A stretch of 35,406 bases of DNA from a virus: positions 1-35,406 of the IMG/VR virus record IMGVR_UViG_3300010157_002680; one strand, given 5' to 3'. The notes under the pieces are model-generated. The model was not told where the DNA came from. It made no database searches and saw only the letters and a program-made list of their open reading frames with translations. A program made the position numbers and the translations under genes. Of this stretch, positions 7,259-30,706 are shown piece after piece. Within the stretch, counting starts at the first letter, position 1. Each line of letters starts with the position of its first letter.

Positions 7259-7267
7259 TACATCGTT

Positions 7268-8575: not shown

Positions 8576-8596
8576 CCTATTTCTTTTAAAGTAGGC

Positions 8597-8613
8597 CTAT
8601 TTATTAATATATA
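8597..8613 (+). promoter_or_regulatory. Class II promoter motif for the GIY-YIG gene
   Basis: CCTATTTATTAATATAT begins 26 bases before ATG 8623. It shares TATTTATTAATATA with the motif at 25183. Confidence 0.5.
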
Positions 8614-8622
8614 AAAAGGCTT

Positions 8623-9375
8623 ATGAGAAAATACTACGTTTATACTTTAGAGGATAAAGATAACAAGGTATTCTACGTAGGGAAAGGATCTAAAACAGAA
8701 TCCTACGATAGAATTGAATACCACTTAAAGTACTGGTTTCACAATAAGAATCGAAAACTGACAAACAAAATACGTAAACTCAAGGAAGACTATACTGCAG
8801 TTATTGTATTTGAATCAGAATTTGAAGAAGAGTGTCTATGCAAAGAGGTAGAGTTAATAACATATTACGGTATAGAGAACCTATGTAATCTAACAGGTGG
8901 AGGAGAAGGAGTGTCGGGGTATAGACATACGTTAGAATCGAGAGTAAAAATGAGCTTAAAAGTTAATAAGGATATTTCTATAAAAAACTTAAAAAAAGCT
9001 TGTGAAGTGAATACCGGTAGGAGAAAAGCAGATAAGTTTAATATAGTGGAACTCTATAAAACTAAATCTATTTACGAGATAAAAAGATTAACAGGTCTAG
9101 ACTTTACAACTATTAAAAACTATCTAATAGAGAAAGACGAGTACGTTAAAAATAAGAACAGAAAGCAAGAATCAAATAAGACTAGAAATGCAAAGAGCAA
9201 AAGTCAAAAATTACGTAACCGTAGAACAGTCTACCAGTTTAGTCTAGAAGGAGATTTACAGCAAAGTTGGAGATGTGCTTTAGAGGCTGTAACAGTATAC
9301 GGTGTATGTATTTATGATGCGCTACGTGGAAAACAGAAAACAGCATATAACTACCGTTGGAGTTACGAAAAATAA
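8623..9375 (+). CDS. GIY-YIG homing endonuclease
   Basis: A 250-residue protein opening with YYVYTLEDKDNKVFYVGKG, the YVY...YVG pair that defines GIY-YIG nucleases, followed by RIEYHLKYW. Downstream come a NUMOD3-like segment (TLESRVKMSLKV), an HTH-like segment (SIYEIKRLTGLDFTTIKNYL) and a C-terminal NUMOD1-like module (VYQFSLEGDLQQSWRCALEA, YNYRWS). This matches free-standing or intron-encoded phage homing endonucleases such as the Seg and I-TevI types. It sits between two genes of the glycan island with its own promoter motif, so it is probably a mobile insertion. Confidence 0.9.
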   Translation: MRKYYVYTLEDKDNKVFYVGKGSKTESYDRIEYHLKYWFHNKNRKLTNKIRKLKEDYTAVIVFESEFEEECLCKEVELITYYGIENLCNLTGGGEGVSGYRHTLESRVKMSLKVNKDISIKNLKKACEVNTGRRKADKFNIVELYKTKSIYEIKRLTGLDFTTIKNYLIEKDEYVKNKNRKQESNKTRNAKSKSQKLRNRRTVYQFSLEGDLQQSWRCALEAVTVYGVCIYDALRGKQKTAYNYRWSYEK

Positions 9376-9398
9376 ACCGTATATTATAATAAATTAAC

Positions 9399-9863
9399 AT
9401 GGAAAAAGATACATTAATATTATGTCCAAAATGCCAGGGGGATGCTTGCTATAAGTCCCCCCTTAACGAAACCTTATTCAGTTACTACTGTTTTAGCTGT
9501 GGGTATTCAACCACTGATGCTCAGACTGTAGACGAATTTGAAATAGAGGCTTACGAAGAGACTCTACCGGAGTTATACAAAGACATTAAACATATCGATG
9601 AAGAGGGGAGGATCTGGTACCCCAACACAATCAACCTACCTGAGAAGGGTACAGTCTTTTTAGGCATCAATCTTAAAACAGGATTAGTGGAGTGGTGCGG
9701 TATACAGGTTAGGAAACTAACCACAGAAGAAAAGAAACAACTAGCCAATAAAGGTATCAAGTTTAAATCAGATGCTTCGACGATGAAGTTCTTCGGTAAA
9801 GATTTCATAGAAGCTCTAGGCTATATTGGATTTTTTGACGTACAAGAACCTAAAAAGAAGTAA
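9399..9863 (+). CDS. Zinc-ribbon protein of unknown function
   Basis: A 154-residue protein with an N-terminal zinc ribbon, Cys9/Cys12 (CPKC) and Cys31/Cys34 (CFSCGY), as in transcription-factor and primase-like ribbons. The rest (GRIWYPNTINLPEKGTVFLG, VEWCGIQVRKLTTEEKKQL, DASTMKFFGKDF) is a compact alpha/beta domain that I recognise only as a phage-type hypothetical protein. It lies between the GIY-YIG gene and the GT2 gene, 3 bases from the latter. Confidence 0.75.
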   Translation: MEKDTLILCPKCQGDACYKSPLNETLFSYYCFSCGYSTTDAQTVDEFEIEAYEETLPELYKDIKHIDEEGRIWYPNTINLPEKGTVFLGINLKTGLVEWCGIQVRKLTTEEKKQLANKGIKFKSDASTMKFFGKDFIEALGYIGFFDVQEPKKK

Positions 9864-9866
9864 TCT

Positions 9867-10505
9867 ATGCCATCAATCAGTTATGCAATTACGGCCTGTA
9901 ATGAACATCAAGAACTAGAACGTCTACTAGATCAATTAGATAATAATATTCGAGATATAGATGAAGTAGTAGTTCAATTAGATAATACTGCTACCGAAGA
10001 AGTAAAAGAGGTAGCGGTTAAATACAACGTAGGTAGTAGGTATGAATACCATAGAATATTTTTTGGACTAAATGGAGACTTTGCTACATTTAAAAACAAT
10101 CTAAAGAATCATTGTACAAGGGATTATATCTTTTTCATAGATGCTGATGAGTATTTAGGAGAAGACTTACTAGGGAATCTTCCTGAGATCTTAGACCTTA
10201 ATCCTAACCACGATGTGTTCTTAATACCAAGAATCAATACAGTAGAAGGTATAACTCATGAACATATCAAGAAATGGGGATGGAATCTAAACGATAAAAA
10301 CTGGATCAACTATCCAGACTATCAAACCAGGTTATGTAAGAATAGAAAAGATATTCAATGGTACGGTAGGGTGCATGAGAGATTACAATCTACTGAACTA
10401 TTATTAGGAGAAGCATTACCTACATATCATGGATTGGATTTAATTCATCCGAAGACAATTCAAAGACAAGAAAAACAAAACGCATTCTATGATAACATAC
10501 AGTAA
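9867..10505 (+). CDS. GT2-family glycosyltransferase
   Basis: A 212-residue GT-A protein with ISYAITACNEHQELERLL at the N terminus and the metal-binding Asp92-Ala-Asp94 motif in FFIDADEYLGED. It is short for the family but complete in the catalytic half, with a conserved aromatic region (WYGRVHERL) near the end. It probably transfers a single sugar using a metal-bound nucleotide sugar. Its end overlaps the next gene by 17 bases, indicating coupling to the fucosyltransferase-like gene. Confidence 0.85.
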   Translation: MPSISYAITACNEHQELERLLDQLDNNIRDIDEVVVQLDNTATEEVKEVAVKYNVGSRYEYHRIFFGLNGDFATFKNNLKNHCTRDYIFFIDADEYLGEDLLGNLPEILDLNPNHDVFLIPRINTVEGITHEHIKKWGWNLNDKNWINYPDYQTRLCKNRKDIQWYGRVHERLQSTELLLGEALPTYHGLDLIHPKTIQRQEKQNAFYDNIQ

Positions 10506-11307
10506 AATAGGACACTTTGGTAGACTGGGTAACCAGTTATTTCAATTTGCATCTACGATAGGTATTGCTAGAAAGTTAGGATATGAAGTAGCTTTTCCAA
10601 AAAATAATACCATACACGCTGTAACAGAACATTTTCAGGATGGAGTAACGAGAGATGTTGTATTTGATATCCCAGCTGTATTTAACGTACCTGAGAGTTT
10701 GCTATACGAAACTTTTACACCAAAGTACCTTACATCAGAGAGATTTTTTCATTTTGATAATACCTTATTTGGAATTTCTGAGAATACGGACTTGGCTGGG
10801 TATATGCAGTCTGAAAAGTATTTTAAGCATTGTGAAGAAGAGTTAAGGTCAATCTTAACATTTAAAGAAGCTATACAGCAAGTAGCAGTAGAGTTATTTC
10901 CTAAGGTAGATCACCCTACAGTATCCATTCATGTAAGGAGAGGAGACTATGTTAATCAACAACAATTTCATCCGGTATGCTCTTTAGAATACTATCAAGA
11001 AGCATTAAATATTTTTACAGACCAGAATTATACTTTCATTGTTTTTTCAGATGATATAGAATACTGTAGAGAAATATTTGGAAGTTCGGATAATTTACTG
11101 TATATTGATAATAGAGATCCTTACATAGATCTATGTCTAATGTCTATGTGCGGTAATAACATAATAGCAAATAGCAGCTTTAGCTGGTGGGGAGCCTGGT
11201 TAAATAAAAATAAACAAAAGAAAGTAGTTGCTCCAAAGCACTGGTTTGGATCAGCTTATTCACATAACACTTCAGACCTATACTGTGCTGATTGGATACA
11301 AATTTAA
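10489..11307 (+). CDS. GT11 alpha-1,2-fucosyltransferase-like protein
   Basis: A 272-residue protein with the full GT11 motif set: GRLGNQLFQF (residues 11-20), SIHVRRGDYV (146-155), FIVFSDDIEYCREIF, and NSSFSWWGAWLN near the C terminus. In this family the HxRRGDY motif binds GDP-fucose, and the enzymes add fucose in alpha-1,2 linkage to galactose. No GDP-fucose synthesis genes (gmd, fcl) are seen in the window, so the donor would come from the host or from elsewhere in the genome. Confidence 0.9.
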   Translation: MITYSKIGHFGRLGNQLFQFASTIGIARKLGYEVAFPKNNTIHAVTEHFQDGVTRDVVFDIPAVFNVPESLLYETFTPKYLTSERFFHFDNTLFGISENTDLAGYMQSEKYFKHCEEELRSILTFKEAIQQVAVELFPKVDHPTVSIHVRRGDYVNQQQFHPVCSLEYYQEALNIFTDQNYTFIVFSDDIEYCREIFGSSDNLLYIDNRDPYIDLCLMSMCGNNIIANSSFSWWGAWLNKNKQKKVVAPKHWFGSAYSHNTSDLYCADWIQI

Positions 11308-11332
11308 AAATTGTAAATATAAAATATTAAGA

Positions 11333-12457
11333 ATGGATACTAAATACGACTACTTAATTGTAGGAGCAGGTTTATACGGATTAATTAATGCCCGTATCCT
11401 TACTGATAACGGATATAAGTGTTTGGTTTTAGATAAACGAAACCATATCGGAGGTAACTGTTACACAGAAGATGTTGAAGGTATAAAAGTTCATAAATAT
11501 GGACCGCATATTTTCCATACAGACAAAAAAGAAGTTTGGGAATATATTAACAGGTATACATCTATAAATCATTTTTCATGTAGACCTAAGTTAAGGTATG
11601 GGAACGCAATTTATTCATTTCCGATCAACTTATTAACGCTTCACCAGGTTTACGGAGTTCTTTCTCCAGAAGAAGCAAGATTGAAGATAGAAGAAGTAAC
11701 CGCTCCGTATAAAAAACTGTACCCAGATCCTAAAAATGCCTACGAATGGGGAATGCAGTTAGTAGGTCCAGAGCTATATGAGATATTCTATGAAGGATAC
11801 CTAAAAAAACAATGGGGGAAAGACCCTAAAGATATTCCAGCAGGAGTACTTAAGAGACAAGTCTTTAGGTTACTGTTTGAGGATAGTTACTATAATCACC
11901 CGTATCAAGGCATACCTGATTATGATCTACTGTTCAGTAATCTTGTAAAGGGTATTGAAGTAAAATTAGAGGTAGATTATTTAGCAAGTCGAGAATATTA
12001 TAATTCTATAGCAAAGAATATTATATATACCGGACCCATAGATCAATTCTATGACTACAGATACGGGCCTTTAGAATATAGGTCTCTAATCTTTAAAGAA
12101 GAACGATTAGAAATTCCAGACTACCAAGGAACGTTTATGATGAGCTATCCAGAAGGTAAGTATGATTTTACTAGAATAATAGAGCATAAACATTTTACAT
12201 TTGGAACTCAACCTTTTACTGTTATAACTAAAGAATACCCTGATAACTGGTCGATAGGTAAGGAAAGTTACTATCCGGTAAACGATGAAAGAAATCAAGA
12301 GGTATACGAACAGTATGCTGAGTTAGCTAAGGAAGAAAGTAATATTCTTTTTGGAGGAAGAATGGGGAGTTATAAATACCTTAATATGGATGAAACAATC
12401 GATCTAGCTTTAAAATGTGCTTTAGATATAGTAACTCGTAATTTTACAAAACTGTAA
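11333..12457 (+). CDS. glf: UDP-galactopyranose mutase
   Basis: A 374-residue FAD protein, the normal length for the family. It has the nucleotide-binding start YDYLIVGAGLYGLINA (residues 5-20), DKRNHIGGNCYTE, the GPHIFHTDKKEVWEY segment, YEGYLKKQWG, and the arginine-rich RYGPLEYRSL. It converts UDP-Galp to UDP-Galf, supplying galactofuranose for surface glycans. The start at 11333 gives the expected N terminus; upstream in-frame codons run into the preceding gene. Its presence suggests that one of the neighbouring transferases uses UDP-Galf. Confidence 0.93.
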   Translation: MDTKYDYLIVGAGLYGLINARILTDNGYKCLVLDKRNHIGGNCYTEDVEGIKVHKYGPHIFHTDKKEVWEYINRYTSINHFSCRPKLRYGNAIYSFPINLLTLHQVYGVLSPEEARLKIEEVTAPYKKLYPDPKNAYEWGMQLVGPELYEIFYEGYLKKQWGKDPKDIPAGVLKRQVFRLLFEDSYYNHPYQGIPDYDLLFSNLVKGIEVKLEVDYLASREYYNSIAKNIIYTGPIDQFYDYRYGPLEYRSLIFKEERLEIPDYQGTFMMSYPEGKYDFTRIIEHKHFTFGTQPFTVITKEYPDNWSIGKESYYPVNDERNQEVYEQYAELAKEESNILFGGRMGSYKYLNMDETIDLALKCALDIVTRNFTKL

Positions 12458-12464
12458 TACTGTC

Positions 12465-13046
12465 ATGCATACTAAAGAACTTGTAGTTTCTCATTTTGAA
12501 AAAAACCTAGATTGGTTACAGGATATAACTCCTGAATGTAAAGTTATAGTCTACGATAAGAATGAGAAAGATTCAGACTTTATAAAATTACCAAATATTG
12601 GTAGAGAGCCTCATACCTATCTTTATCACATAGTAGAACATTATAATTCGTTATGCGACTGGACTATATTTAGTCAGGATAATAACCAAGACCATGTTAA
12701 AGACTGGCCGTTTATAATTAATCAAAGTCAAGATTTCTGGAAAGTAAAAGCTGCAATATGTGTAGAAGGTGCATACTATTTTTGTGACTACGGCATATAT
12801 GAAGAACGTGGAGATACAGGAGGAGGCTACCCAATGGGTGATATATGGAGAGCTATATTTAATACACCATTTCCTGGTGCAGTTACTTTCGCACCGGCCT
12901 GTAATTTTATAGTATCTAAAGATATAATATTGACGAGACCGTTAAGCTTCTACTCTAAATTAAAGCTAATCCTAGAGCAAGTACCTTTAGCACCTTGGGT
13001 TTTTGAAAGATATTTTGGTTACATATTTGATCCTAACATAAATTAA
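12465..13046 (+). CDS. DUF3431-like protein
   Basis: A 193-residue protein with VVSHFEKNLDWL at the start, VIVYDKNEKD, LPNIGREPHTYLYHIVEHYN and DWTIFSQDNNQDH. The order VVSxxxExLxWL, VYxKxx, LPNxGREAHTYLxHI is what I know from the DUF3431 family, whose members often sit in polysaccharide clusters and may be glycosyltransferase-like. No catalytic role is established. It starts 7 bases after glf and belongs to the same run of genes. Confidence 0.75.
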   Translation: MHTKELVVSHFEKNLDWLQDITPECKVIVYDKNEKDSDFIKLPNIGREPHTYLYHIVEHYNSLCDWTIFSQDNNQDHVKDWPFIINQSQDFWKVKAAICVEGAYYFCDYGIYEERGDTGGGYPMGDIWRAIFNTPFPGAVTFAPACNFIVSKDIILTRPLSFYSKLKLILEQVPLAPWVFERYFGYIFDPNIN

Positions 13047-13052
13047 TAACAT

Positions 13053-13940
13053 ATGAAGTATAACAAAGCATTAGTTTTCGGTGCAGCAGGAATGCTCGGA
13101 ACAACACTTAAAGAATTAGCAGATAGTACTAAATTTATTCTTACCGATAAAGATACAGGTACAGGTTTAGAATTTTGTGATATTCGAGATTTATCAGCAA
13201 CAACAGAAATTGTAGAGAAATACAATCCAGACATCATTCTCAACTTTGCTGCTATAGTCGATCTTGAATACAGTGAATTAGAAAAAGACGATTGTTACCT
13301 AACTAATACCATAGCAGCTATACACCTATTTAACTTAGCTAAGGATAAGAACGTACCCTACGTATTCATAAGTACAGCAGGGATATTCGGTAATGACCAA
13401 GAATTTTTCACAGAGGAAGATACTCCTACTCCGTTAAGTGTATATGGAAAGAGTAAGTATTACACTGAACAACTTCTTCAAAATCAGGGGTACGAGAAGT
13501 ACTGGATTTTTAGAGCAGGATGGATGATGGGCGGTGGCCCTGATGTCGATAAAAAGTTTGTTAATAAGATTATAAAACAAATTAAATCAGGTAAGACAGA
13601 ACTAAATGTAGTAGATGATAAATTAGGAGTCCCTACTTACACTAAAGACTTTGCAGGATCTATACTTAGACATATAGAAGAAGATTTGCCTTTTGGTCTA
13701 TATAATATGGTCAGTCAAGGAGAAGCAAGTAGATATGATACAGCAGTAGAAATAAATAATTACCTAGGACTAGGTTTAAAAATAAATAAAGTAGACAGTG
13801 ACTTTTTCAAAGCAGAATACTTTGCACAAAGACCTTTTTCTGAAAAACTAATCAATAAAAAACTAAACGGTCTAGATCGAAATTATATGAGAGACTGGAA
13901 AGTATGTTTACATGAATACTTAGATAAATTTTACCGATAA
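13053..13940 (+). CDS. NAD(P)-dependent sugar reductase, RmlD-like
   Basis: A 295-residue short-chain dehydrogenase/reductase of the extended type. GAAGMLG (10-16) is the cofactor-binding loop. DIRD, NFAAIVD and the catalytic Tyr131-x3-Lys135 (YGKSK) follow, with LGVPTYTKDFA near the end typical of dTDP-4-dehydrorhamnose reductase. The likely reaction is reduction of a 4-keto-nucleotide sugar. No rmlA, rmlB or rmlC homologue is in the window, so the substrate would be host-made or the enzyme acts on another keto sugar. Confidence 0.85.
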   Translation: MKYNKALVFGAAGMLGTTLKELADSTKFILTDKDTGTGLEFCDIRDLSATTEIVEKYNPDIILNFAAIVDLEYSELEKDDCYLTNTIAAIHLFNLAKDKNVPYVFISTAGIFGNDQEFFTEEDTPTPLSVYGKSKYYTEQLLQNQGYEKYWIFRAGWMMGGGPDVDKKFVNKIIKQIKSGKTELNVVDDKLGVPTYTKDFAGSILRHIEEDLPFGLYNMVSQGEASRYDTAVEINNYLGLGLKINKVDSDFFKAEYFAQRPFSEKLINKKLNGLDRNYMRDWKVCLHEYLDKFYR

Positions 13941-13941
13941 T

Positions 13942-15294
13942 ATGAAGCAACCATTTTTTAGTATATGTATTCCTGTCTGGGAAGCAAAGGGAAAAGGAGT
14001 TGATTACTTAGAGTATAATCTAACCTCTATTAAAAATCAAGTTTGTACAGATTTTGAAGTTGTTATATCTGACCACAGTGTCGATAATGTTATAGAAGAG
14101 TATGTAAAGAGGTGGCGCGATCTTCTAACTATCACATATGTTAAATGTGAAGCAGGACGCGGTAGGATAGCACCAAATGTTAACACTGCTATTCAGAATG
14201 CAAAAGGAAAATACATTAAGTTTCTTTACCAGGATGACTTCTTTTTTAATGAAAGCTCACTTCAGACTATTAAAGATTATCTGACAGAGACTAAAGATGT
14301 TAGTTGGGCTGTAACAGGCTGTACACACACCGCAGATATGGAAACTATCTACGATACCATGACTCCTAGATATAACAGTAATATTCACTTAGGGTATAAT
14401 ACAATCAGCTCACCCTCAGTACTGGTAATTTTAAATAGAAAAGATAATTTACTATTTGATGAATCTCTAAAATTTCTAGATGATGTAGAATATTACAAAC
14501 GTAACTACATTAAATACGGTCCTCCTCATATAATTAATACTACTTGTGTGGTTAATAGAGAAGGCGGTGTTAGAGCTACTTCTATGTTAACTAATGAGAT
14601 TAGACAGCAGGAGGTAGAGAAAATTAAAACTAAATATTCGCAGAAGATAGAATTACCTAATGTTACTCTTGTATGTGTTACTAGTGTGGATGTACCTAAA
14701 GCTTTACAAGCACTTAAGTACTCCTGTAAAGGAATTAACTTTAGCAGTACTAAGTTGATTACATCCTGCGATGTTGTAGACGAGGAAGTTGAAATTATTA
14801 AATGTAGGCCTTTAGATTATGAACAGTACAGTTACTTTATTCTTTACGAACTCTGGCAACATATCACTACAGACTACGCATTGATAATACAGGAAGATGG
14901 TTACGTTGTCAATCCTTCTGAATGGACAGATGCATTTCTAGATTACGACTATATCGGTGCTCCATGGCCTTTACCTACAGACAGCTTTTCTTTTCGGGAC
15001 AGGTCTGGAGTGGTTCATAGAGTAGGTAACGGAGGATTTACTTTACGGTCAAAAAAAGTTCTTGAACTACCCTCTAAATTAGGTTTAGAGTGGAAATCTT
15101 TTCATGGCTATTACAACGAAGATGGATTTATCTGTGTAAATTACCGTCATATTTTTGATGAACATAACTGTAAAATAGCACCTCTGCACATAGCTAGCTA
15201 CTTCAGCCATGAAACAAATCTACCGGAAACTCAAGGCATAACTCCATTCGGATTTCATGGAAGAGCTAATCCATATTACAAGACACTCAATTAA
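13942..15294 (+). CDS. Two-domain protein: GT2 glycosyltransferase fused to DUF5672
   Basis: A 450-residue protein. Residues 1 to about 230 are a GT2 domain (FSICIPVWEAKGKGVDYLEY, FEVVISDHSVDN, KFLYQDDFFF with paired Asp). Residues about 240-445 match the DUF5672 pattern (LVCVTSVDVPKALQALKYS, DYALIIQEDGYVVNPSEW, FLDYDYIGAPWP, VGNGGFTLRSKKVLE, NEDGFICV). DUF5672 is itself glycosyltransferase-like, so one chain may carry two transfer activities. It follows the RmlD-like gene by 1 base. Confidence 0.82.
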   Translation: MKQPFFSICIPVWEAKGKGVDYLEYNLTSIKNQVCTDFEVVISDHSVDNVIEEYVKRWRDLLTITYVKCEAGRGRIAPNVNTAIQNAKGKYIKFLYQDDFFFNESSLQTIKDYLTETKDVSWAVTGCTHTADMETIYDTMTPRYNSNIHLGYNTISSPSVLVILNRKDNLLFDESLKFLDDVEYYKRNYIKYGPPHIINTTCVVNREGGVRATSMLTNEIRQQEVEKIKTKYSQKIELPNVTLVCVTSVDVPKALQALKYSCKGINFSSTKLITSCDVVDEEVEIIKCRPLDYEQYSYFILYELWQHITTDYALIIQEDGYVVNPSEWTDAFLDYDYIGAPWPLPTDSFSFRDRSGVVHRVGNGGFTLRSKKVLELPSKLGLEWKSFHGYYNEDGFICVNYRHIFDEHNCKIAPLHIASYFSHETNLPETQGITPFGFHGRANPYYKTLN

Positions 15295-15312
15295 TATAAA
15301 TTAAATTAAGAT

Positions 15313-15927
15313 ATGATTTTAGATTTACAAAGACTAGTACAGAGGTACAGTATGAATATTAAAGGCGTAGTACATGTTGGCGCTCATTACGGAGAAGAAA
15401 ATGAAGCTTATGATAAATTAAATATTCAAAATAGAATATTTTTTGAACCTGCAAGTCGAAATTACTCTAAACTTCAACAAGTATTAAACGGTTCTTACCT
15501 GGCCTACAATGCAGCACTAGGAAATAGTAATACAGAGATAGAAATGTATATAGAAACAGTTAATAATGGCGCATCTAACTCAATATTAAAACCTGTAGGA
15601 CATTTACAGCAATACCCCTGGATTACTTTTCCTGAGAAAGAAACTGTTAAGATGTACAGATTAGATGATATTGAATTCCAGGAAGATAACTATAACTTTA
15701 TTAACATGGATGTACAAGGATATGAACTTGAAGTTCTTAAAGGAAGTGCAAAGTTCTTACATAAGGTTGATTATGTTATGACAGAAATTAACAGAGCGGA
15801 GGTTTATGAGAACTGTGCTAAAATAGACGAACTGGTAGATTTTCTTTCTCCTTATGGATTTAAGTTAGTAGAACAAGATTGGGGAGGAGATACTTGGGGA
15901 GATGGATTTTTCATTAAAAATAATTAA
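15313..15927 (+). CDS. FkbM-family methyltransferase
   Basis: A 204-residue protein with VVHVGAHYGEENEAY (SAM-binding loop), FFEPASRNYSKLQQ, AALGNSNTEIEMY, VKMYRLDDIEF and FINMDVQGYELEVLKGS, the standard FkbM order. FkbM enzymes O-methylate sugars and other small molecules. Here it most likely caps or decorates the glycan made by the adjacent transferases. Confidence 0.88.
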   Translation: MILDLQRLVQRYSMNIKGVVHVGAHYGEENEAYDKLNIQNRIFFEPASRNYSKLQQVLNGSYLAYNAALGNSNTEIEMYIETVNNGASNSILKPVGHLQQYPWITFPEKETVKMYRLDDIEFQEDNYNFINMDVQGYELEVLKGSAKFLHKVDYVMTEINRAEVYENCAKIDELVDFLSPYGFKLVEQDWGGDTWGDGFFIKNN

Positions 15928-15929
15928 TT

Positions 15930-16844
15930 ATGATAGTTACAGAGATGTACAAAGGGCAGGGATTTGGAAATCAACTTTTTTGTTATATAACAACTCGATG
16001 CATAGCTCTTGATAATGGCTATGCCTTCGGTCTCATAACACCTGAGAATATCGCGAATAATATACACTCCTCTCACGGACCCTACTTTATGAATCTAGAT
16101 TTAGGAGCTCCGGTTGATCGCTTAACTCTAACTAGTGCGTATACGGAAAAAGAAGTTAGAATGTTACTACCTCAAAATCCAAACGGGCATGATGAATTTA
16201 TCGGATGCGATATCAGATTATTTGATCCTAAGTTAAGGGAAGTGCCGGATGGATGTAAGGTAGATGGATTAATGCAATCAGAAGATTACTTCTACCATAG
16301 AAAGCAAGAGATAAACCAGTGGTTAAGTATTAAACCGGAATATGATTGTTATGATTTTAGCAATAATGATATATGCGTCCTTCATATGAGATACTATGGT
16401 AATGATGTGAATGTACAACTTCCTCGAGATTACTGGGTACGAGCTATATACCATATGTTATCTATCAATCCAAATATGTCCTTTCTAGTTATTAGTAACG
16501 ATACAGAATATGCAAAGAGCTTACTTCCTGAATTGGCAGAGAACGTTGTTAATTTTGATATGGCAAAAGATTACTCTATAATAAAGAATGCAAAGTACCT
16601 AATTTTAGGTAATTCTAGCTTTCCATTTTTTGCAGCTTGGACTAATCAAGTATCTAATCTAACAATAGCTCCTAAGTACTGGGCTAGATATAATATCTCA
16701 GACGGGTATTGGTCTCTTGGATGTAACCTCTATAGAGATTTTTACTACATGGATAGAGAAGGGAATTTGCAAAGCTACGATGAATGCTTACGTGAATTTC
16801 AAATTTACAGAAGAAAAAAATTAGACTCTTACTATAAAAACTAA
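15930..16844 (+). CDS. GT11-like glycosyltransferase (diverged)
   Basis: A 304-residue protein with GQGFGNQLFCYITTRCIAL near the start, VDGLMQSEDYFYH, CVLHMRYYGNDV in the position of the GT11 HxRxGD motif, and ILGNSSFPFFAAWTNQ. The motif order is that of the fucosyltransferase at 10489, but the HVRRGDY motif is altered to HMRYYGND, so donor preference may differ. It begins 2 bases after the FkbM gene. Confidence 0.8.
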   Translation: MIVTEMYKGQGFGNQLFCYITTRCIALDNGYAFGLITPENIANNIHSSHGPYFMNLDLGAPVDRLTLTSAYTEKEVRMLLPQNPNGHDEFIGCDIRLFDPKLREVPDGCKVDGLMQSEDYFYHRKQEINQWLSIKPEYDCYDFSNNDICVLHMRYYGNDVNVQLPRDYWVRAIYHMLSINPNMSFLVISNDTEYAKSLLPELAENVVNFDMAKDYSIIKNAKYLILGNSSFPFFAAWTNQVSNLTIAPKYWARYNISDGYWSLGCNLYRDFYYMDREGNLQSYDECLREFQIYRRKKLDSYYKN

Positions 16845-16853
16845 ACTTAATTT

Positions 16854-17705
16854 ATGCAGATAATAGATGCTTTTTTATTTTTCAATGAATTAGAATTACT
16901 TGATATACGACTTAATATTTTAGATAGTAAGGTAGATAAGTTTGTATTGGTGGAATCGACCGTCACACATACCGGTCAGCCGAAAAAATTATTTTATGCA
17001 GAAAATAAACATCTGTTTGAAAAGTTTAACCATAAGATAGTACATTATATTGATGATACCACACCTAACTCTTTTGAAGAAGCAGCGCTAAGGTTTACAA
17101 CCGAGATAGATCCTTTAAAGAAAGATATCATCTTACACGCAGTTACAACTTCTAACACAGGACATCAAGTTCAATGGCTTAGAGAATTCTACCAACATGA
17201 AAGTATTAGAATAGGATTAAGTAAAGTTCCTGATATACAAGATAATGACCTTATATTTAATTCGGACTTAGATGAAATTTGGAATCCAGAAAGAGATTAT
17301 CCTCTTGATGATTACGAGATTTTTAAACTACAGCAATACGTTTATACCGGATTTTTAAATATAAGAAGTGAAGAACAATGGTACGGTACCTACTACTCAA
17401 AGTACAAGAACCTAAAGAATGCATGTTTAAACCATTTAGATACGGTGACTAAAACAGATCATATCTTTTTAGATAACGGAGGATGGCATTTCACATTTCA
17501 AGGAGGAATTGATAGAGTAAAGACTAAGATAGAGAATTACGGTCACCAAGAATATAATACCCAGGAAGTCAAAAGTCTTATTGACCTAAGGTTACAATCT
17601 GGGTTAGATGTACTAGGACGTCCGTTTAGATGTCAAATTGATACGGAAAATCTACCGAAGTACTTAATAGATAATCGAGAATTATATAAACAATTTTTTA
17701 AATGA
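16854..17705 (+). CDS. GT17-family glycosyltransferase
   Basis: A 283-residue protein with IIDAFLFFNELELLDIRLNI (residues 3-22), FVLVESTVTHTGQPK (30-44), HQVQWLREFYQHESIRIGL, and LIFNSDLDEIWNP as the metal-binding region, ending with GGWHFTFQGG. This is the pattern of GT17 enzymes, named after eukaryotic N-acetylglucosaminyltransferase III and common in bacterial and phage glycan clusters. The sugar is unknown. It overlaps the next gene by 4 bases. Confidence 0.85.
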   Translation: MQIIDAFLFFNELELLDIRLNILDSKVDKFVLVESTVTHTGQPKKLFYAENKHLFEKFNHKIVHYIDDTTPNSFEEAALRFTTEIDPLKKDIILHAVTTSNTGHQVQWLREFYQHESIRIGLSKVPDIQDNDLIFNSDLDEIWNPERDYPLDDYEIFKLQQYVYTGFLNIRSEEQWYGTYYSKYKNLKNACLNHLDTVTKTDHIFLDNGGWHFTFQGGIDRVKTKIENYGHQEYNTQEVKSLIDLRLQSGLDVLGRPFRCQIDTENLPKYLIDNRELYKQFFK

Positions 17706-18841
17706 TAACTTTTTGCATACCCAGTAAAAATAATCTAAGGTACTTAAAAACCTGTATCCCTTCTATACAGACTAATTCGTTTTATAAAAATGATATAGTA
17801 GTATTTGTAGACCAAGATAATGACGGGACAGAAGAATGGTTAAAAGCTAACAACATTACGTATATCTTAAATCAAGAACAGGAATGTAGAGGAATAGGTT
17901 ATGCTTATGATACTATGTTTAGAGCCTCTAAAACAGACCTAGTAGTAGCATTTCATGCCGATATGATCTTAGGGCCGGATGCTGATAAGTATCTCATACA
18001 AGAACACAGAAGAGGATCTGTAGTATGTGCTACAAGAATCGAACCTCCTCTACATCCACCAGGTCCAGAGAAGATCGTAAAAGACTTTGGAATGTGGCCA
18101 GAAGATATTAAGTGGGAGGAATTCAATTCCTTTGTAAAATTAGAGTCAAAAGCTAACGAAGGTAGATTAGGGAAGACTTCTTTTGCCCCGTGGTTGATTG
18201 ATAGGAGAGATCATTTAGGTCATGACCCTATATTTCTATCTGTATTTGAAGATGCAGATCTATTTCGTAGATTTGTATTAGCAGGATATGAAATGATACA
18301 ATCCTGGAGTAGTATGGTGTATCACCTCACCTGTAGAGGGGGTCAATTTGCAGGAGCAGAAAAGTTAGAAGATTTCCAAAAGAAAGATGAAAAGTGGCAA
18401 TATAACAATCAAGTCTCTATGATGGAGTATATTAGAAAATGGGGAGGTACTTTTAAAGAAGCAGGACCTTGTGAACCTAAGCCAAATAAAAAGTATAGTG
18501 TAGGTTTAGAAGTGAAGGGTATAAGATGCTCACAGGTATTAAATTATGAACCATTCTTTGATCAAATAAGTATTGAAGAAAATCCAACACATTATATAGC
18601 AAGAGTACAACCTATATCCACTTTTTCAATTAAAGATAAATTTGTAACAGAGGTAACATCCGATATTAAAATAAAATATGAATATAATGTTGATACCTTC
18701 CAGGAATTTACTTATATTATAAGTAACCTAGAGGACATTTTAGAAGAAGCAGAATCAAATTCATCTTATGAAATAGGTCCTGTTATTCTAGAGATAAGTA
18801 ATAAAGAAGTAATTACTCCAAAGCTAAACCTATTTCAATGA
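17702..18841 (+). CDS. GT2-type glycosyltransferase, tandem copy A
   Basis: A 379-residue protein with ITFCIPSKNNLRYLKTCIPS, the metal motif in VVAFHADMILGPDADKYL, then VCATRIEPPLHPPGPEKIV and the acceptor region DPIFLSVFEDADLFRRFVLA. The C-terminal third is a separate, less conserved region. It is clearly homologous to the next gene: HADMILGP, RIEPPLHP, EKIVKDFG, FAPW, VYHLTCRG and RKWG all recur. Gene junctions on both sides are 4-base ATGA overlaps. Confidence 0.87.
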   Translation: MITFCIPSKNNLRYLKTCIPSIQTNSFYKNDIVVFVDQDNDGTEEWLKANNITYILNQEQECRGIGYAYDTMFRASKTDLVVAFHADMILGPDADKYLIQEHRRGSVVCATRIEPPLHPPGPEKIVKDFGMWPEDIKWEEFNSFVKLESKANEGRLGKTSFAPWLIDRRDHLGHDPIFLSVFEDADLFRRFVLAGYEMIQSWSSMVYHLTCRGGQFAGAEKLEDFQKKDEKWQYNNQVSMMEYIRKWGGTFKEAGPCEPKPNKKYSVGLEVKGIRCSQVLNYEPFFDQISIEENPTHYIARVQPISTFSIKDKFVTEVTSDIKIKYEYNVDTFQEFTYIISNLEDILEEAESNSSYEIGPVILEISNKEVITPKLNLFQ

Positions 18842-20013
18842 TATCATTTATAATACCGAGTTATAACAACATTAACCATCTTAAGAACGTCTACACTTCA
18901 ATAAAAAAACATGCCTCTGAAGCTGAAATTGTTTTATTAGACGATGCGTCCACAGACGGTACTTGGGAGTGGATGCAGCAAATTGCTAAATCAGATGACA
19001 AGGTTCTACACTTGAGATGGAGTACTCGAGTAGGTCATACTATCTTATACGATATTGGAATCAGAGAAGCTACTAACGATATAGTTGGTATCTTACATGC
19101 CGATATGATTCTAGGACCTAACTATATTCAGAATACGGTTAAACATCTAAAACCGGGTACGGTTGTTTGTGGTACAAGAATTGAACCTCCTTTACACCCT
19201 GAAGGTAAAGAGAAGATCGTAAAAGATTTCGGTCAAGACTTCGATACTCTGAATATAGAGATGTTTGAAGAGTATGTAGACACAGTTGCTGGTTACGAAA
19301 AAGATAAAACAACTAAGGGAATGTTTGCTCCCTGGATACTTTACAAAGAAGATTTTCAAGCTATAGGAGGACATGATCCTTTGTTTGCTCCATTCCCGTA
19401 TGAGGACTCAGATATCTTTCAGAGATGGATATTAGCCGGATATGAATTAGTCCAGAGCAGAGATGCATTTGTCTATCACCTAACCTGTAGAGGTCATAGA
19501 TGGAACGATCAAGTGGGTAAAGATGACGATTACTTTAAAGTAGTATCTGCTAAAGCAGGTAGAAATTATTTACGCAAATGGGGCAGTTGGATTAAGAACG
19601 ACGATTACCAATATCCGATTATACCTTCTAAGTACGATATCGGCTTTGTGGTTAAGAACTGTAACCAACACTTATTAGAAGTACTTGAACCTTGGTGTTC
19701 AACAATTTATGTAGATTGTGATTCTAAAGATTACATAAGTAAGGAACAGCCCAATACAAAATTCAACCTAAAGGAACGTATTAGACCGTACGGTAATGAG
19801 AAGCAGAACTATATCTTGATTAATTTTGATGCTATGTCCTTGACTAACAATTCGTTTACTATTTTACAGCAGTTATCAGACATACTAAAAGAATCAGGAG
19901 AGGTTGGAGAATTCAAATTAGATATCTTTAGAGTAACAGTTAATAATTTGGAGACTTACGAAAAAGAACTTATCAAATTAGACTCACCTTACTATACTAA
20001 TCAGCTACTTTAA
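18838..20013 (+). CDS. GT2-type glycosyltransferase, tandem copy B
   Basis: A 391-residue paralogue of the preceding product. It starts ISFIIPSYNNINHLKNVYTS, has LLDDASTDGTWEW (the first aspartate motif of GT2), GILHADMILGPNYI, RIEPPLHPEGKEKIVKDFGQ, PFPYEDSDIFQRWILAGYEL and VYHLTCRGHRWND. It keeps the DDAS motif that copy A has replaced by FVDQDNDGTEEW. A tandem duplication with divergence probably gave two transferases of different specificity. Confidence 0.87.
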   Translation: MISFIIPSYNNINHLKNVYTSIKKHASEAEIVLLDDASTDGTWEWMQQIAKSDDKVLHLRWSTRVGHTILYDIGIREATNDIVGILHADMILGPNYIQNTVKHLKPGTVVCGTRIEPPLHPEGKEKIVKDFGQDFDTLNIEMFEEYVDTVAGYEKDKTTKGMFAPWILYKEDFQAIGGHDPLFAPFPYEDSDIFQRWILAGYELVQSRDAFVYHLTCRGHRWNDQVGKDDDYFKVVSAKAGRNYLRKWGSWIKNDDYQYPIIPSKYDIGFVVKNCNQHLLEVLEPWCSTIYVDCDSKDYISKEQPNTKFNLKERIRPYGNEKQNYILINFDAMSLTNNSFTILQQLSDILKESGEVGEFKLDIFRVTVNNLETYEKELIKLDSPYYTNQLL

Positions 20014-20016
20014 ACT

Positions 20017-20631
20017 ATGCATATACATTTTATATGGTTAGGAGGTGAAATTCCTATTAAGTATGTACCTAACATTAAAACCTGTCAACAACTAAATCCA
20101 CACTACCAAATTATGTGTTGGTTAGATAAGGATGTAGAGATGATGTTTGAAAAATACGGAGTGAAAGATCTAGCGGATACAATATCTTTTATCAGCAAGT
20201 GTAACTTGGCTAAGTATGTTATTCTAGCAGAATACGGAGGTATTATATCAGATCTGGATATCAAATGGAAGAAATCATTTACACAGATTCAACTAGATAC
20301 TAACTTCCCTGCAGTAGATTTGGTAGTGACATACCCTGCTGTTAAGGAGTTCTATATTCAAGGAAGAGAGGTACTTTTGTTTGACGATCCCTTTATGATA
20401 AGTAAGCCAAATCTATTTAAAGACTGTATTAACTTTCGAACGAAAAGATCTAACTTAAGGGTAGACTTAGAGACCGGTAAACAACATAAGGTAGAGCCTA
20501 TAGGACCTTTCCTGCTAACAGAATGGATCTATGCAGAACAAATAAAAGTAGGCTACTTCAGCCAAGTAGGGTACTTGGACGGTAACGGTTACTACGGTAA
20601 CCATGAGCAATTTGGACTATGGAAAAATTAA
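20017..20631 (+). CDS. GT32-like glycosyltransferase (DXD sugar-binding)
   Basis: A 204-residue protein with IHFIWLGGEIPIKYVPNIKT at the start, ISKCNLAKYVILAEYGGII, and Asp79-Leu-Asp81 in SDLDIKW, the DXD motif of the OCH1/capsular-transferase group. It lacks a long C-terminal extension but ends with a plausible conserved EPIGPFLLTEW segment. It is the last gene of the glycan island, 3 bases after the previous stop. Confidence 0.85.
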   Translation: MHIHFIWLGGEIPIKYVPNIKTCQQLNPHYQIMCWLDKDVEMMFEKYGVKDLADTISFISKCNLAKYVILAEYGGIISDLDIKWKKSFTQIQLDTNFPAVDLVVTYPAVKEFYIQGREVLLFDDPFMISKPNLFKDCINFRTKRSNLRVDLETGKQHKVEPIGPFLLTEWIYAEQIKVGYFSQVGYLDGNGYYGNHEQFGLWKN

Positions 20632-27565: not shown

Positions 27566-27598
27566 GTTGTTTGTTTGTAGATTAGTTCATATCTTTAA
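27566..27598 (+). promoter_or_regulatory. Class I promoter for the RNA-repair genes
   Basis: GTTG at 27566, a 20-base spacer, TATCTTTAA at 27590. The first gene starts at GTG 27626. Confidence 0.85.
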
Positions 27599-27625: not shown

Positions 27626-28282
27626 GTGTTAACAATACAATTAAATAAGGACCAAAAAATATTCTTTACCTCCGACACACACTACGGGCACAAAAACATA
27701 TGTAGAGGTGTGAGTAATTGGACGGGAGGATTGGATAAGACTAGAGACTTTAGGACTATAGACCAAATGAATGCTGCTATAATAAACGGTATTAATCAAA
27801 CAGTAGGTCAAGATGATATCTTAGTACACTTAGGTGATTGGTCGTTTGGTGGCTTTGAATCTATCCAAGAATTCAGAGACAGGATAATATGTAAGAACAT
27901 CTACCTTATATTAGGTAATCACGATCACCATATTGAAAACAATAGAGGTAACTGTCAGGATTTATTCAAAGGAGTATACCAATACACAAGACTAGAAGTA
28001 GTGAGGCCTATAAACAGTAGGATTGTAGAGAAGTTTAATTTTGTATTGAGCCACTTTCCAATCTGTAGCTGGCATGATATGAACAAAGGTAACTATCATT
28101 TATTCGGACACGTTCATCTACCTCAGGATAAGAAAATAATGCCAGGCAAATCAATGGACGTAGGCATGGATGGTAATAATTTAATACCCTACGAACTAAG
28201 AGAGGTAGTATCGATACTAAAAGATAGACCAAATAAGACATCAGTAATCCCACAAGATCACCACGAAACAGAAGTAAGATGA
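27626..28282 (+). CDS. Calcineurin-like metallophosphoesterase
   Basis: A 218-residue protein with all metal-binding blocks of the family: FFTSDTHYGH with Asp17 and His19, VHLGDW with Asp71, LGNHDHH with Asn98/His99, SHFP with His143, and FGHVH with His162/His164. The start is GTG 27626; no ATG is available at the conserved N terminus. It overlaps the P-loop kinase gene by 4 bases (ATGA). In bacterial Pnkp this type of phosphatase removes 3' or 2',3'-cyclic phosphates from RNA ends, and the neighbours suggest that role here. Other substrates are possible. Confidence 0.9.
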   Translation: MLTIQLNKDQKIFFTSDTHYGHKNICRGVSNWTGGLDKTRDFRTIDQMNAAIINGINQTVGQDDILVHLGDWSFGGFESIQEFRDRIICKNIYLILGNHDHHIENNRGNCQDLFKGVYQYTRLEVVRPINSRIVEKFNFVLSHFPICSWHDMNKGNYHLFGHVHLPQDKKIMPGKSMDVGMDGNNLIPYELREVVSILKDRPNKTSVIPQDHHETEVR

Positions 28283-28692
28283 ATAAAGTATTGTTTATAG
28301 TAAGAGGCTTACCGGGGTCAGGTAAGTCAACATTTGCAAACCACATATGGAACAGTTATGCAATATGTGAAGCAGATAAATATTTCTACGATAGAGAAGG
28401 TAACTACAACTTCGATGTAACAAAACTACACCAAGCACATAAATGGTGCCAGGAGCAAGTAGAGATCCTTATGAAGGATAATCAAATCAATCCTCAATAC
28501 TATCCGGAAATAGTAGTATCCAATACCTCGACTATGGTAAAAGAAATGCAGCCCTATCTAGATCTAGCTCAACAATATGGCTACAGAGTAGTATCGTTGA
28601 TAGTAGAGAATAGACATGGTTCTAAAAATGTACACGACTGCCCAGAAGAGACTATTGAGAGAATGAGAGATAGATTTGAAATTTCTTTATAA
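28279..28692 (+). CDS. P-loop kinase, polynucleotide-kinase-like (AAA_33 type)
   Basis: A 137-residue protein with Walker A GLPGSGKST (residues 10-18, Lys16), CEADKYFYD in the position of the catalytic Asp, VVSNTSTMVKEMQPYL, and a C-terminal lid region with NRHGSKNVHDCPEETIERM. This is the N4BP2/T4 Pnkp 5'-kinase fold. A role phosphorylating RNA 5'-OH ends fits its overlap with the phosphatase gene and the RNA ligase two genes on. Confidence 0.85.
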   Translation: MNKVLFIVRGLPGSGKSTFANHIWNSYAICEADKYFYDREGNYNFDVTKLHQAHKWCQEQVEILMKDNQINPQYYPEIVVSNTSTMVKEMQPYLDLAQQYGYRVVSLIVENRHGSKNVHDCPEETIERMRDRFEISL

Positions 28693-28697
28693 ATAAA

Positions 28698-28730
28698 GTT
28701 GTTTGGTCAAAATAAAATTCTTATCTTTAG
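28698..28730 (+). promoter_or_regulatory. Class I promoter
   Basis: GTTG at 28698, a 20-base spacer, TATCTTTAG at 28722. It fixes the next gene start at 28751 (29 bases), because an in-frame ATG at 28703 would precede the transcription start. Confidence 0.88.
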
Positions 28731-28750
28731 TATATACTAAAATAAACACA

Positions 28751-29326
28751 ATGAAAAATATATTTGTCCTTCCTACTAATGGAGAAAGTAGATTGTATAA
28801 ATCTATTAACGGTATGTTTTATTGGCAAACCAAACCTGTAATAGATTTAGATATAAGAGGTAAAAACTATCATATATACATTACTAATAATGAAGATATG
28901 AAATATGGAGATTGGGTATATCATTGTGCTTCAAATAAACTGTTTAAGTATGATGGACGAGGGCTTTGTGTGGAAGTTGAAAAAATCATCCTAACAACAG
29001 ACCAAGACTTAATCAAAGATGGTGTACAAGCTATTGATGATGATTTCTTAGAATGGTTTGTTAAGAATCCAAGTTGTGAGATTGTTGAAGTTGAAAGAGG
29101 TTATTTAGGAATGGGTGGTTTTGTAAAATCAAATGAACCAATATCTAAGGATAAAATAGAATATAAAATCATCATTCCAAAAGAAGAATCTAAACAAGAA
29201 AAAATGTATAGTGAGCAAGAAGTTAAAGACTTAATCGAAGATTGGACAAAGATGGCAAGTGGATTAAATCAAAACTTCCCATTAGATAAATTTAATATTT
29301 GGTTTGAACAATTTAAAAAGAAATAA
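28751..29326 (+). CDS. Bacteroidota-phage-type hypothetical protein
   Basis: A 191-residue protein. The part around residues 93-117 (DDFLEWFVKNPSCEIVEVER) is a sequence I have seen in many flavobacterial phage and genome hypotheticals, without a known function. The C terminus (YSEQEVKDLIEDWTKMA, FNIWFEQFKKK) is helical. The start at 28751 follows from the promoter position. It shares an operon with the RNA ligase, 5 bases downstream. Confidence 0.8.
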   Translation: MKNIFVLPTNGESRLYKSINGMFYWQTKPVIDLDIRGKNYHIYITNNEDMKYGDWVYHCASNKLFKYDGRGLCVEVEKIILTTDQDLIKDGVQAIDDDFLEWFVKNPSCEIVEVERGYLGMGGFVKSNEPISKDKIEYKIIIPKEESKQEKMYSEQEVKDLIEDWTKMASGLNQNFPLDKFNIWFEQFKKK

Positions 29327-29331
29327 AACTT

Positions 29332-30462
29332 ATGGAAAATGTAAATAGCGTTTGTTATGTAGCAAGGATAAACGAAATGAAAGCAATCGAAGGAGCAGAC
29401 AATATCGAACAAGCTATCATAGGTGGTTGGAATTGTATTATACAAAAGAACCAATACACCGAAGGTGGTTTAGTAGTAGTAGCCACTACGGATGCTGTCA
29501 TACCTCAAGAACTATCAGATGCAATGAACGTAACCAGTTATCTACGTAAAGGTGGACGTGTACGTACAGTTAAGTTGAGAGGAGTATATAGTGAATGTTT
29601 GATCATACCTCTATCATATCTATCAGGTAGACTGACTATGGGTGACTTAGATGTTAGAGAAGGCCAGGACATGATGGAAAAACTTGGTATTATTAAATAC
29701 GAACCACCTGCTAAGATTATTCAACTGGCATCAGGACGTAAGATCAAATATACAGACAATCCAAACTTTGGTATTTACTATAAGTTTCCTAACCTAAAGA
29801 ACGTTCAAGGAATGTTTACAGAGGAGGATGAAGTAGAGATTACAAGAAAGATACATGGCACGAATGCTAGGTATGGAATTGTAAAGAAGGCTAAGATATC
29901 GATTTGGGATAGGATTAGAAAGCTATTTGGTAGTAAGTGGGTGGATTATGAATTCGTTGTTGGGTCACATAATGTAGAGAAGGGTTCAGACTCGCAAGGC
30001 TACTACGATACCAATGTATGGTATGATATTGAGAAGAAGTATGACATCAAGAAGAAACTATGGGAATATATTAAAGATTGTGAAGATATTGGAGAGGGAA
30101 TTATCCTATACGGAGAAATATATGGGGCAGGTATTCAAAAGGGATACGATTATGGATTAAAGGATATTCAATTTGTGGTATTTGATATAAAGGATGATGG
30201 TGAGTATATGAGCCCGGTTATAGCTAGACTAACAACACAACGATTATTTAAACTACCCTATGTTGAAGTATTACATTATGGTAATTGGTCTCAAGAGATC
30301 CAAGACAAATACACCTTCAATAATTTCATACCTGGAACCAAGACACCGGAAGAAGGTATAGTAATCAAGCACTATACAGGCAGAAGGCAAAAAGTAGCTA
30401 AAGTAATTAATCCAGAATATTTAATTGCCTCAGAGAAGCATGATTATGGTGATAGCCATTAA
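29332..30462 (+). CDS. RNA ligase, DraRnl (Rnl5) type
   Basis: A 376-residue protein. Residues 1 to about 150 form an N-terminal OB-like domain (ARINEMKAIEGADNIEQAII), as in the Deinococcus DraRnl family. The nucleotidyltransferase core follows: motif I RKIHGTNARYG with Lys173, the residue that takes AMP; ILYGEIYGAG with Glu262; FVVFDI (281-286); motif IV EGIVIK (341-346); and motif V lysines near KVAKVIN. DraRnl-type enzymes seal 3'-OH/5'-phosphate nicks in RNA. Together with the phosphatase and kinase this gives the three steps of RNA repair, for example of tRNAs cut by host anticodon nucleases. Confidence 0.9.
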   Translation: MENVNSVCYVARINEMKAIEGADNIEQAIIGGWNCIIQKNQYTEGGLVVVATTDAVIPQELSDAMNVTSYLRKGGRVRTVKLRGVYSECLIIPLSYLSGRLTMGDLDVREGQDMMEKLGIIKYEPPAKIIQLASGRKIKYTDNPNFGIYYKFPNLKNVQGMFTEEDEVEITRKIHGTNARYGIVKKAKISIWDRIRKLFGSKWVDYEFVVGSHNVEKGSDSQGYYDTNVWYDIEKKYDIKKKLWEYIKDCEDIGEGIILYGEIYGAGIQKGYDYGLKDIQFVVFDIKDDGEYMSPVIARLTTQRLFKLPYVEVLHYGNWSQEIQDKYTFNNFIPGTKTPEEGIVIKHYTGRRQKVAKVINPEYLIASEKHDYGDSH

Positions 30463-30478
30463 AAGTAAATAAGTAACA

Positions 30479-30706
30479 ATGACACCAAAAGAAAAAGCAG
30501 AAGAATTAGTAAAATGGTTTTTAAATGAAGGATTACATAAATATGGTAGATATCAATCTTCTGATGTAGAAGATTTAATAGGAGCAAAATTTAGTGCTAC
30601 TAAAGTAGTAGATGAAATATTAAACCATCATTCACAAGAGCAGGGTTTATATAGGATTGATACCTACTATTGGCAAGAAGTAAAACGAGAAATAAATACT
30701 ATATGA
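30479..30706 (+). CDS. Small Bacteroidota-phage-type hypothetical protein
   Basis: A 75-residue protein starting MTPKEKAEELVKWFL and ending YYWQEVKREINTI. This N-terminal/C-terminal combination is frequent in short hypothetical proteins of flavobacterial phages and prophages; its function is unknown. It follows the ligase gene by 16 bases and overlaps the next short gene by 4 bases. Confidence 0.8.
   Translation: MTPKEKAEELVKWFLNEGLHKYGRYQSSDVEDLIGAKFSATKVVDEILNHHSQEQGLYRIDTYYWQEVKREINTI

Follow-up and report, generated by a model that had tools for sequence, protein, structure and literature searches.

A conserved phage cassette of separate metallophosphoesterase, kinase and DraRnl-type RNA ligase genes with a probable role in RNA repair

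Bacteriophage T4 encodes Pnkp, a 5'-kinase/3'-phosphatase, and RNA ligase 1 (Rnl1), so that 3' healing, 5' phosphorylation and ATP-dependent sealing of RNA are all provided by the phage. Bacterial Pnkp and the Pnkp1-Rnl-Hen1 system have the same set of activities, with a calcineurin-like phosphatase together with a P-loop kinase. Like T4, the phage studied here appears to encode such a set. In the virus record IMGVR_UViG_3300010157_002680, a stretch of a Bacteroidota phage whose 35,406 bases are called the window below, four open reading frames (ORFs) on the + strand fill positions 27626-30462 and encode a metallophosphoesterase (MPE), a kinase (KIN), a protein without an assigned family (UNK) and an RNA ligase (LIG). 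MPE, KIN and LIG form a real conserved cassette whose clustering is not due to chance, and we consider it, with a probability of about 0.8, a phage RNA-repair cassette of separate enzymes that heal and seal cut tRNA-like RNA. The cassette probably represents a familiar type of tRNA-repair system built from a less usual selection of enzymes.

Whereas the phosphatase of T4 is of the HAD type and its ligase is Rnl1, the window phosphatase is separate and calcineurin-like and the window ligase is of the DraRnl type. Bacterial Pnkp has kinase, phosphatase and ligase on a single polypeptide. Compared with it and with Pnkp1-Rnl-Hen1 (PMC4411300), the window has three separate ORFs, apparently another MPE subfamily and another ligase family, and, unlike in Pnkp1-Rnl-Hen1, no Hen1 was identified in the window set. 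DraRnl (DRB0094) and Naegleria NgrRnl share the family of LIG, with an OB domain and a nucleotidyltransferase domain. However, the Deinococcus radiodurans kinase/phosphatase DRB0098 has an HD phosphatase domain (PMC1997131), in contrast to the MPE and stand-alone kinase beside the phage ligase.

A first, sequence-only reading of this stretch had presented the combination as unfamiliar as a described set, which is not supported. KIN, MPE and a ligase annotated as RNA ligase 1 are clustered in Vibrio phages Ceto and PS17B-2, Pseudomonas phage K5 and Escherichia coli phage FV3, where MPE and KIN are of the same kind and the ligase is Rnl1-type. The homologues in these phages are 45-50% (KIN) and 29-37% (MPE) identical by tblastn, and they are mostly named 'ATPase' and 'phosphoesterase'. 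Pseudomonas phages with this type of cluster additionally encode a DraRnl-like ligase at another genomic site. For jumbo phages, the passages of PMC7824862 considered here report ATP-grasp RNA ligases with kinases and phosphatases, the latter usually HAD and in a few cases calcineurin-like, and link cREC to ligases; a three-gene cassette, ligase exchange and a site behind tRNA arrays are not described in those passages. In the open-access literature we found no paper on an MPE-KIN-DraRnl cassette and nothing specific about phage DraRnl or phage kinases of the N4BP2-like kind.

Conservation of the three-gene cassette

Loci were collected separately with each protein as query and were then annotated for the other proteins. 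KIN was near MPE in 60 of the 80 loci sampled with MPE, and the two genes often overlapped. All three genes were present in 29 distinct loci. They were co-directional in every one (29/29), had the order MPE-KIN-LIG in 23, and in several were separated by gaps of 0-6 bp. The sequence-only reading had described phosphatase, kinase and ligase as separate adjacent genes, which agrees with the three separate ORFs and with their families as confirmed by Pfam and PHROGs. It had also set conservation of a four-gene order in relatives as a check; the order is kept for three genes (23/29 loci) and not for four, UNK not being conserved in the set.

A whole-record test was made on 47 large virus records chosen by MPE. 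KIN was found in 40 of them and a ligase in 38, Rnl1-type in 25 and DraRnl-type in 13 and never both; five of the 25 Rnl1-type records additionally had a stronger PF09414 ligase, to which no class was assigned. All seven records without KIN were also without Rnl1-type and DraRnl-type ligases, and in the two records with KIN and no ligase KIN lies less than 4 kb from the contig end. The coupling of KIN and ligase (38 records with both, 2 with KIN only, 0 with ligase only, 7 with neither) gave a Fisher p of 5.7e-7, and 0.0018 after clustering by MPE at 80% identity (13/0/0/3), which corrects for relatedness only crudely in a sample where many records are fragments. RtcB, as an alternative ligase, was in none of the 47 records. 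When records of at least 60 kb were considered, MPE and KIN were at most 3 kb apart in 24 of 30 (random placement expects 1.6), and KIN and the ligase in 20 of 29 (1.5 expected).

The KIN-LIG loci L022 and L027, which lack MPE, carry another Metallophos protein in the space from KIN to LIG, and in the MPE-less locus L035 a cREC cyclic-phosphate domain lies close to LIG. It looks as though other phosphoesterases had refilled the slot for 3' healing. A DUF4326 protein is also encoded between KIN and LIG in L022 (6506-6847) and L027 (3914-4228), beside the other metallophosphoesterase; Pfam confirmed it for L022 alone.

The sister contig UViG_3300011114_000920 (L090/L137/L138) represents a lineage that lost kinase and ligase and retained MPE, a comparison that rests on one metagenome assembly. 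The stretches on either side of its UNK have ~93-96% nucleotide identity to the window. A deletion bounded by short direct matches has reduced KIN to 10 codons, and LIG is missing together with the greater part of the 75-aa ORF that follows it, the 3' end of that ORF being left as a scar (L090). MPE is intact and 97% identical to the window copy, with 17 synonymous and 8 nonsynonymous differences (pN/pS, the ratio of nonsynonymous to synonymous change, 0.11). The loss of both KIN and LIG with MPE kept fits a partnership of KIN and LIG.

Families and motifs of the three enzymes

LIG has an OB domain (PF21189, PHA02142 OB-fold, residues 10-94, 4.7e-15) followed by a nucleotidyltransferase domain (PF09414, RNA_ligase, residues 166-359, 1.2e-16), and its PHROGs match is an RNA ligase (9.7e-58). 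Among solved structures NgrRnl, from Naegleria, is nearest to LIG (1.1e-22); its profile covers the N-terminal domain of LIG and a second stretch within the catalytic domain. The match to TIGR02306 (RNA_lig_DRB0094) spans residues 11-364 and is full-length, with 88.3 bits, below the curated equivalog cut-off of 151.15; LIG is a relative of this family and not a curated equivalog. PF09511, by which the Rnl1 family of T4-type repair is recognized, was not among the Pfam matches of LIG. The nucleotidyltransferase motifs K173-x-H175-G176, G261-E262-I263, E341-G342-x-V344-x-K346 and K357 are invariant in 24 sequences. The two Pfam domains, TIGR02306 and NgrRnl together bear out the earlier assignment of LIG as a Rnl5/DraRnl-type ligase. 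The only cellular LIG relative found, 65% identical, is on a 254-kb contig (L229) of an uncultured Bacteroidetes metagenome-assembled genome, possibly a prophage or a phage contig binned with its host.

KIN matched AAA_33 of Pfam (PF13671, 2.9e-11) and, in PHROGs, phrog_2071 and phrog_505 (polynucleotide kinase), with 3.2e-44 for the ATPase match. By profile it is distantly like the kinase domain of T4 Pnkp (5.4e-5); the other matches are Pnkp1 (0.0011) and 4gp7 (0.0047), a 171-aa chain deposited as 'Metallophosphoesterase' that is probably the Clostridium Pnkp kinase domain. The P-loop GxxGxGKS/T and the general-base aspartate (T4 D35) are present, G13, G15, K16 and D33 being invariant and D33 aligned with the first D of T4 DDY. 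The sequence pattern is reminiscent of the N4BP2 family. KIN is classed here as a putative 5'-OH polynucleotide kinase. KIN and MPE weakly matched separate parts of phrog_8238, a 737-position phage 'RNA ligase' family (KIN at 2-107, 3.8e-5; MPE at 198-260, 0.0034), as they would in a fused enzyme. Copies of KIN with an in-frame stop were seen in L006 (G006:C1:41925-42308, TAG) and L172 (G054:C1:35148-35555, TAA); they are possibly decayed genes, errors or cases of recoding.

MPE matched Metallophos (PF00149, 1.3e-6) and phrog_547 (phosphoesterase, 1.2e-43). Its start codon is GTG in the window and ATG in the nearest relative. The metal-site motifs DxH, GD, GNH(D), H and GHxH are present; across 28 sequences H19, G70-D71, G97-N98-H99, H143 and G161-H162-x-H164 are invariant and D17 is nearly so. 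The predicted structure (mean predicted local distance difference test, pLDDT, 87) has its nearest solved fold in Aquifex aq_1665 (1xm7, Z 17.3), well above LpxH as the next (11.8), and no Pnkp-type phosphatase was among the structural matches listed. The label of Pnkp-type phosphatase, which the sequence-only reading had used, is consequently without support, and the model suggests an aq_1665-type protein that is not demonstrably Pnkp-type. MPE is a candidate for healing 3' ends, acting on 2',3'-cyclic phosphate or 3'-phosphate.

tRNA arrays and the role of the cassette

Loci with MPE, KIN and LIG contained 4.36 tRNA or transfer-messenger RNA (tmRNA) genes per 10 kb, compared with 0.61 in loci chosen by UNK, which is not related to the set. 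At least five such genes were found in 11 of 29 three-gene clusters and in 1 of 63 control clusters, which were UNK-chosen (p 6e-6). L004 has a tmRNA and 25 tRNAs, the last of which ends 18 bp upstream of MPE and is followed by KIN and LIG; L001, L002 and L005 have a similar arrangement. These arrays are the strongest hint to the substrate, as an association and not a proof, and they support the role around tRNA that had been proposed from the window. Arrays of ~20-25 tRNAs that include a tmRNA gene, for which a tag peptide is predicted, were observed near repair genes in L001, L004, L011, L012 and L013.

In the RNA-repair reading, a host or rival RNase would cut RNA and leave 2',3'-cyclic phosphate (or 3'-phosphate) and 5'-OH ends. 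MPE would take off the 3' phosphate group to give a 3'-OH, KIN would phosphorylate the 5'-OH with ATP, and LIG would adenylylate itself, activate the 5'-phosphate and seal the strand. The likely substrates would be tRNAs, both the phage's own and the host's, and possibly tmRNA. Phage tRNAs evade anticodon nucleases according to PMC10264068, in which T4 repair is cited. That the cassette counters anticodon nucleases is plausible, and its study would be a way to learn which host RNA-cleaving defences are countered.

A more specific form of this proposal is possible, and we advance it only tentatively. The MPE-KIN pair with a plugged-in Rnl1- or DraRnl-type ligase may be a modular tRNA-maintenance locus, transcribed with a near-complete phage tRNA/tmRNA set; the phage would thereby both provide its own translation RNAs and mend them. 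The ligase might then be matched to the cut site, Rnl1 to loops and DraRnl to stem nicks or other base-paired RNA. To our knowledge, the biological substrates of DraRnl-type ligases are poorly established, and a DraRnl-type ligase that replaces Rnl1 beside the same healing enzymes and tRNA arrays gives a genetic and biochemical route to its substrate. The recurrent MPE-KIN pair likewise gives a testable function to 'phosphoesterase' and 'ATPase' proteins in hundreds of phage genomes.

Besides the TIGR02306 score of LIG, several points weigh against repair of tRNA-like RNA by all three proteins. Each enzymatic activity, the RNA end chemistry and the substrate are predictions from sequence. KIN has N82, which is invariant, at the position of T4 Pnkp D85. 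No tRNA gene is present in the window itself. KIN-LIG coupling is not absolute: 13 of 37 LIG-sampled records, mostly short, lacked KIN, and LIG occurred without KIN in several records of at least 35 kb, e.g. G009 (197 kb). The nearest solved relative of MPE, 1xm7, is itself a protein of unknown function. In 7 of the 47 MPE-chosen records, and likewise in the sister contig, MPE was solitary, so that it may serve some purpose other than repair; the sister contig warns that it may have a further job.

These last observations lead to the best of the alternatives, in which the repair pair is KIN and LIG only. MPE would then hydrolyse a cyclic nucleotide or another defence signal, or be a nuclease, and other enzymes would heal the 3' end. 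MPE is conserved in the sister contig, where it stands alone, and Flavobacterium phage immuto has an MPE after tRNA genes with no kinase annotated nearby; a 321-bp MPE stretch of immuto was the only DNA-level relative of the region among the phage records. Relatives of MPE (1355 phage records) also outnumber those of KIN (615). However, KIN accompanies MPE, often with overlap, in most MPE-sampled loci, a single-copy KIN lies within 3 kb of MPE in most of the large records, and MPE-less KIN-LIG loci show other phosphoesterases. We regard this alternative as unlikely, although it deserves consideration.

Less probable still, the set could repair or process DNA or RNA/DNA nicks, e.g. phage DNA ends, and not tRNA-like RNA. 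Activity on DNA is common among polynucleotide kinases and enzymes with the MPE fold, and ligases of the DraRnl type can join nicks in duplexes. D. radiodurans has a kinase operon that is linked to DNA repair (PMC1997131). Against this, LIG falls in RNA ligase families and is swapped for Rnl1-type RNA ligases in related records, and cassette loci adjoin tRNA arrays, so that we find such a role improbable.

UNK and the organization of the window

UNK had been put forward as a candidate fourth component of the repair set, and its position between KIN and LIG in the window and the relatives a few kb from repair genes in L010, L012 and L034 would agree with this. However, among 79 UNK-sampled loci KIN was found in 1, LIG in 0 and MPE in 3, of which the sister contig is one, and up to 4 UNK copies per locus lie within 12 kb. 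Loci with KIN and LIG as direct neighbours have no UNK separating them. In the window UNK is preceded by a promoter-like element of its own, and in the sister phage it is strongly divergent despite flanks that are ~94% identical. Given the linkage counts, the multiple copies and this divergence, membership of UNK in the set is very hard to believe, and we judged it to be outside the set, as a variable phage family.

UNK has no Pfam or PHROG family and no relatives in the phage records searched; its structural model was weak (predicted template-modelling score 0.49, low confidence) and gave no fold match. The family has a conserved core (KIILTTDQDLIKDGVQAIDDEFLEWFVKNPSCE) with variable flanks, as seen in L066, L067, L048, L072 and L073. 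In L040, a phage with an UNK relative, ARAGORN predicted a tRNA at 3635-3712 with anticodon tta, which would read TAA and is possibly a suppressor tRNA.

Table 1. Genes and promoter-like elements of the repair region, in window positions.
Feature	Position	Strand	Description
Promoter-like element GTTG-N20-TATCTTTA	27566-27597	+	28 bp upstream of MPE
MPE	27626-28282	+	218 aa, GTG start; calcineurin-like metallophosphoesterase, aq_1665 type
KIN	28279-28692	+	137 aa; small AAA_33 P-loop kinase; 4-bp overlap with MPE
Second promoter-like element	28698-28729	+	Between KIN and UNK; motif and spacing as in the first
UNK	28751-29326	+	Embedded gene, variable phage family; start in ORF list TTG 28703
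LIG	29332-30462	+	376 aa; DraRnl/NgrRnl-type (Rnl5) ATP-dependent RNA ligase, N-terminal OB domain
75-aa ORF	30479-30706	+	Directly 3' of LIG; phrog_21441 (2.5e-8), function-unknown family

As shown in Table 1, promoter-like elements stand before MPE and between KIN and UNK, from which two transcription units are predicted, MPE-KIN and, from the second promoter, UNK-LIG-75-aa ORF. Read-through from the first unit may also reach UNK, LIG and the 75-aa ORF. The TTG in the ORF list lies inside the second element, so that the start of UNK is most likely the ATG at 28751.

The motif GTTG-N20-TA[TC]NTTTA has 18 copies on the + strand of the window (892-34524), each exactly 32 nt long, against 0.3 expected per shuffle and 1 copy on the reverse strand. 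It resembles the Bacteroidetes -33/-7 promoter, TTTG/TANNTTTG (PMC6847099), except that the -7-like part ends in A and the consensus in G. Between 1505 and 22770 of the window, a span that covers polysaccharide genes, the element has no copies. These genes form a long run at 5032-20631 of the virus record, with several glycosyltransferases (family 11 included), UDP-galactopyranose mutase, RmlD and an FkbM methyltransferase.

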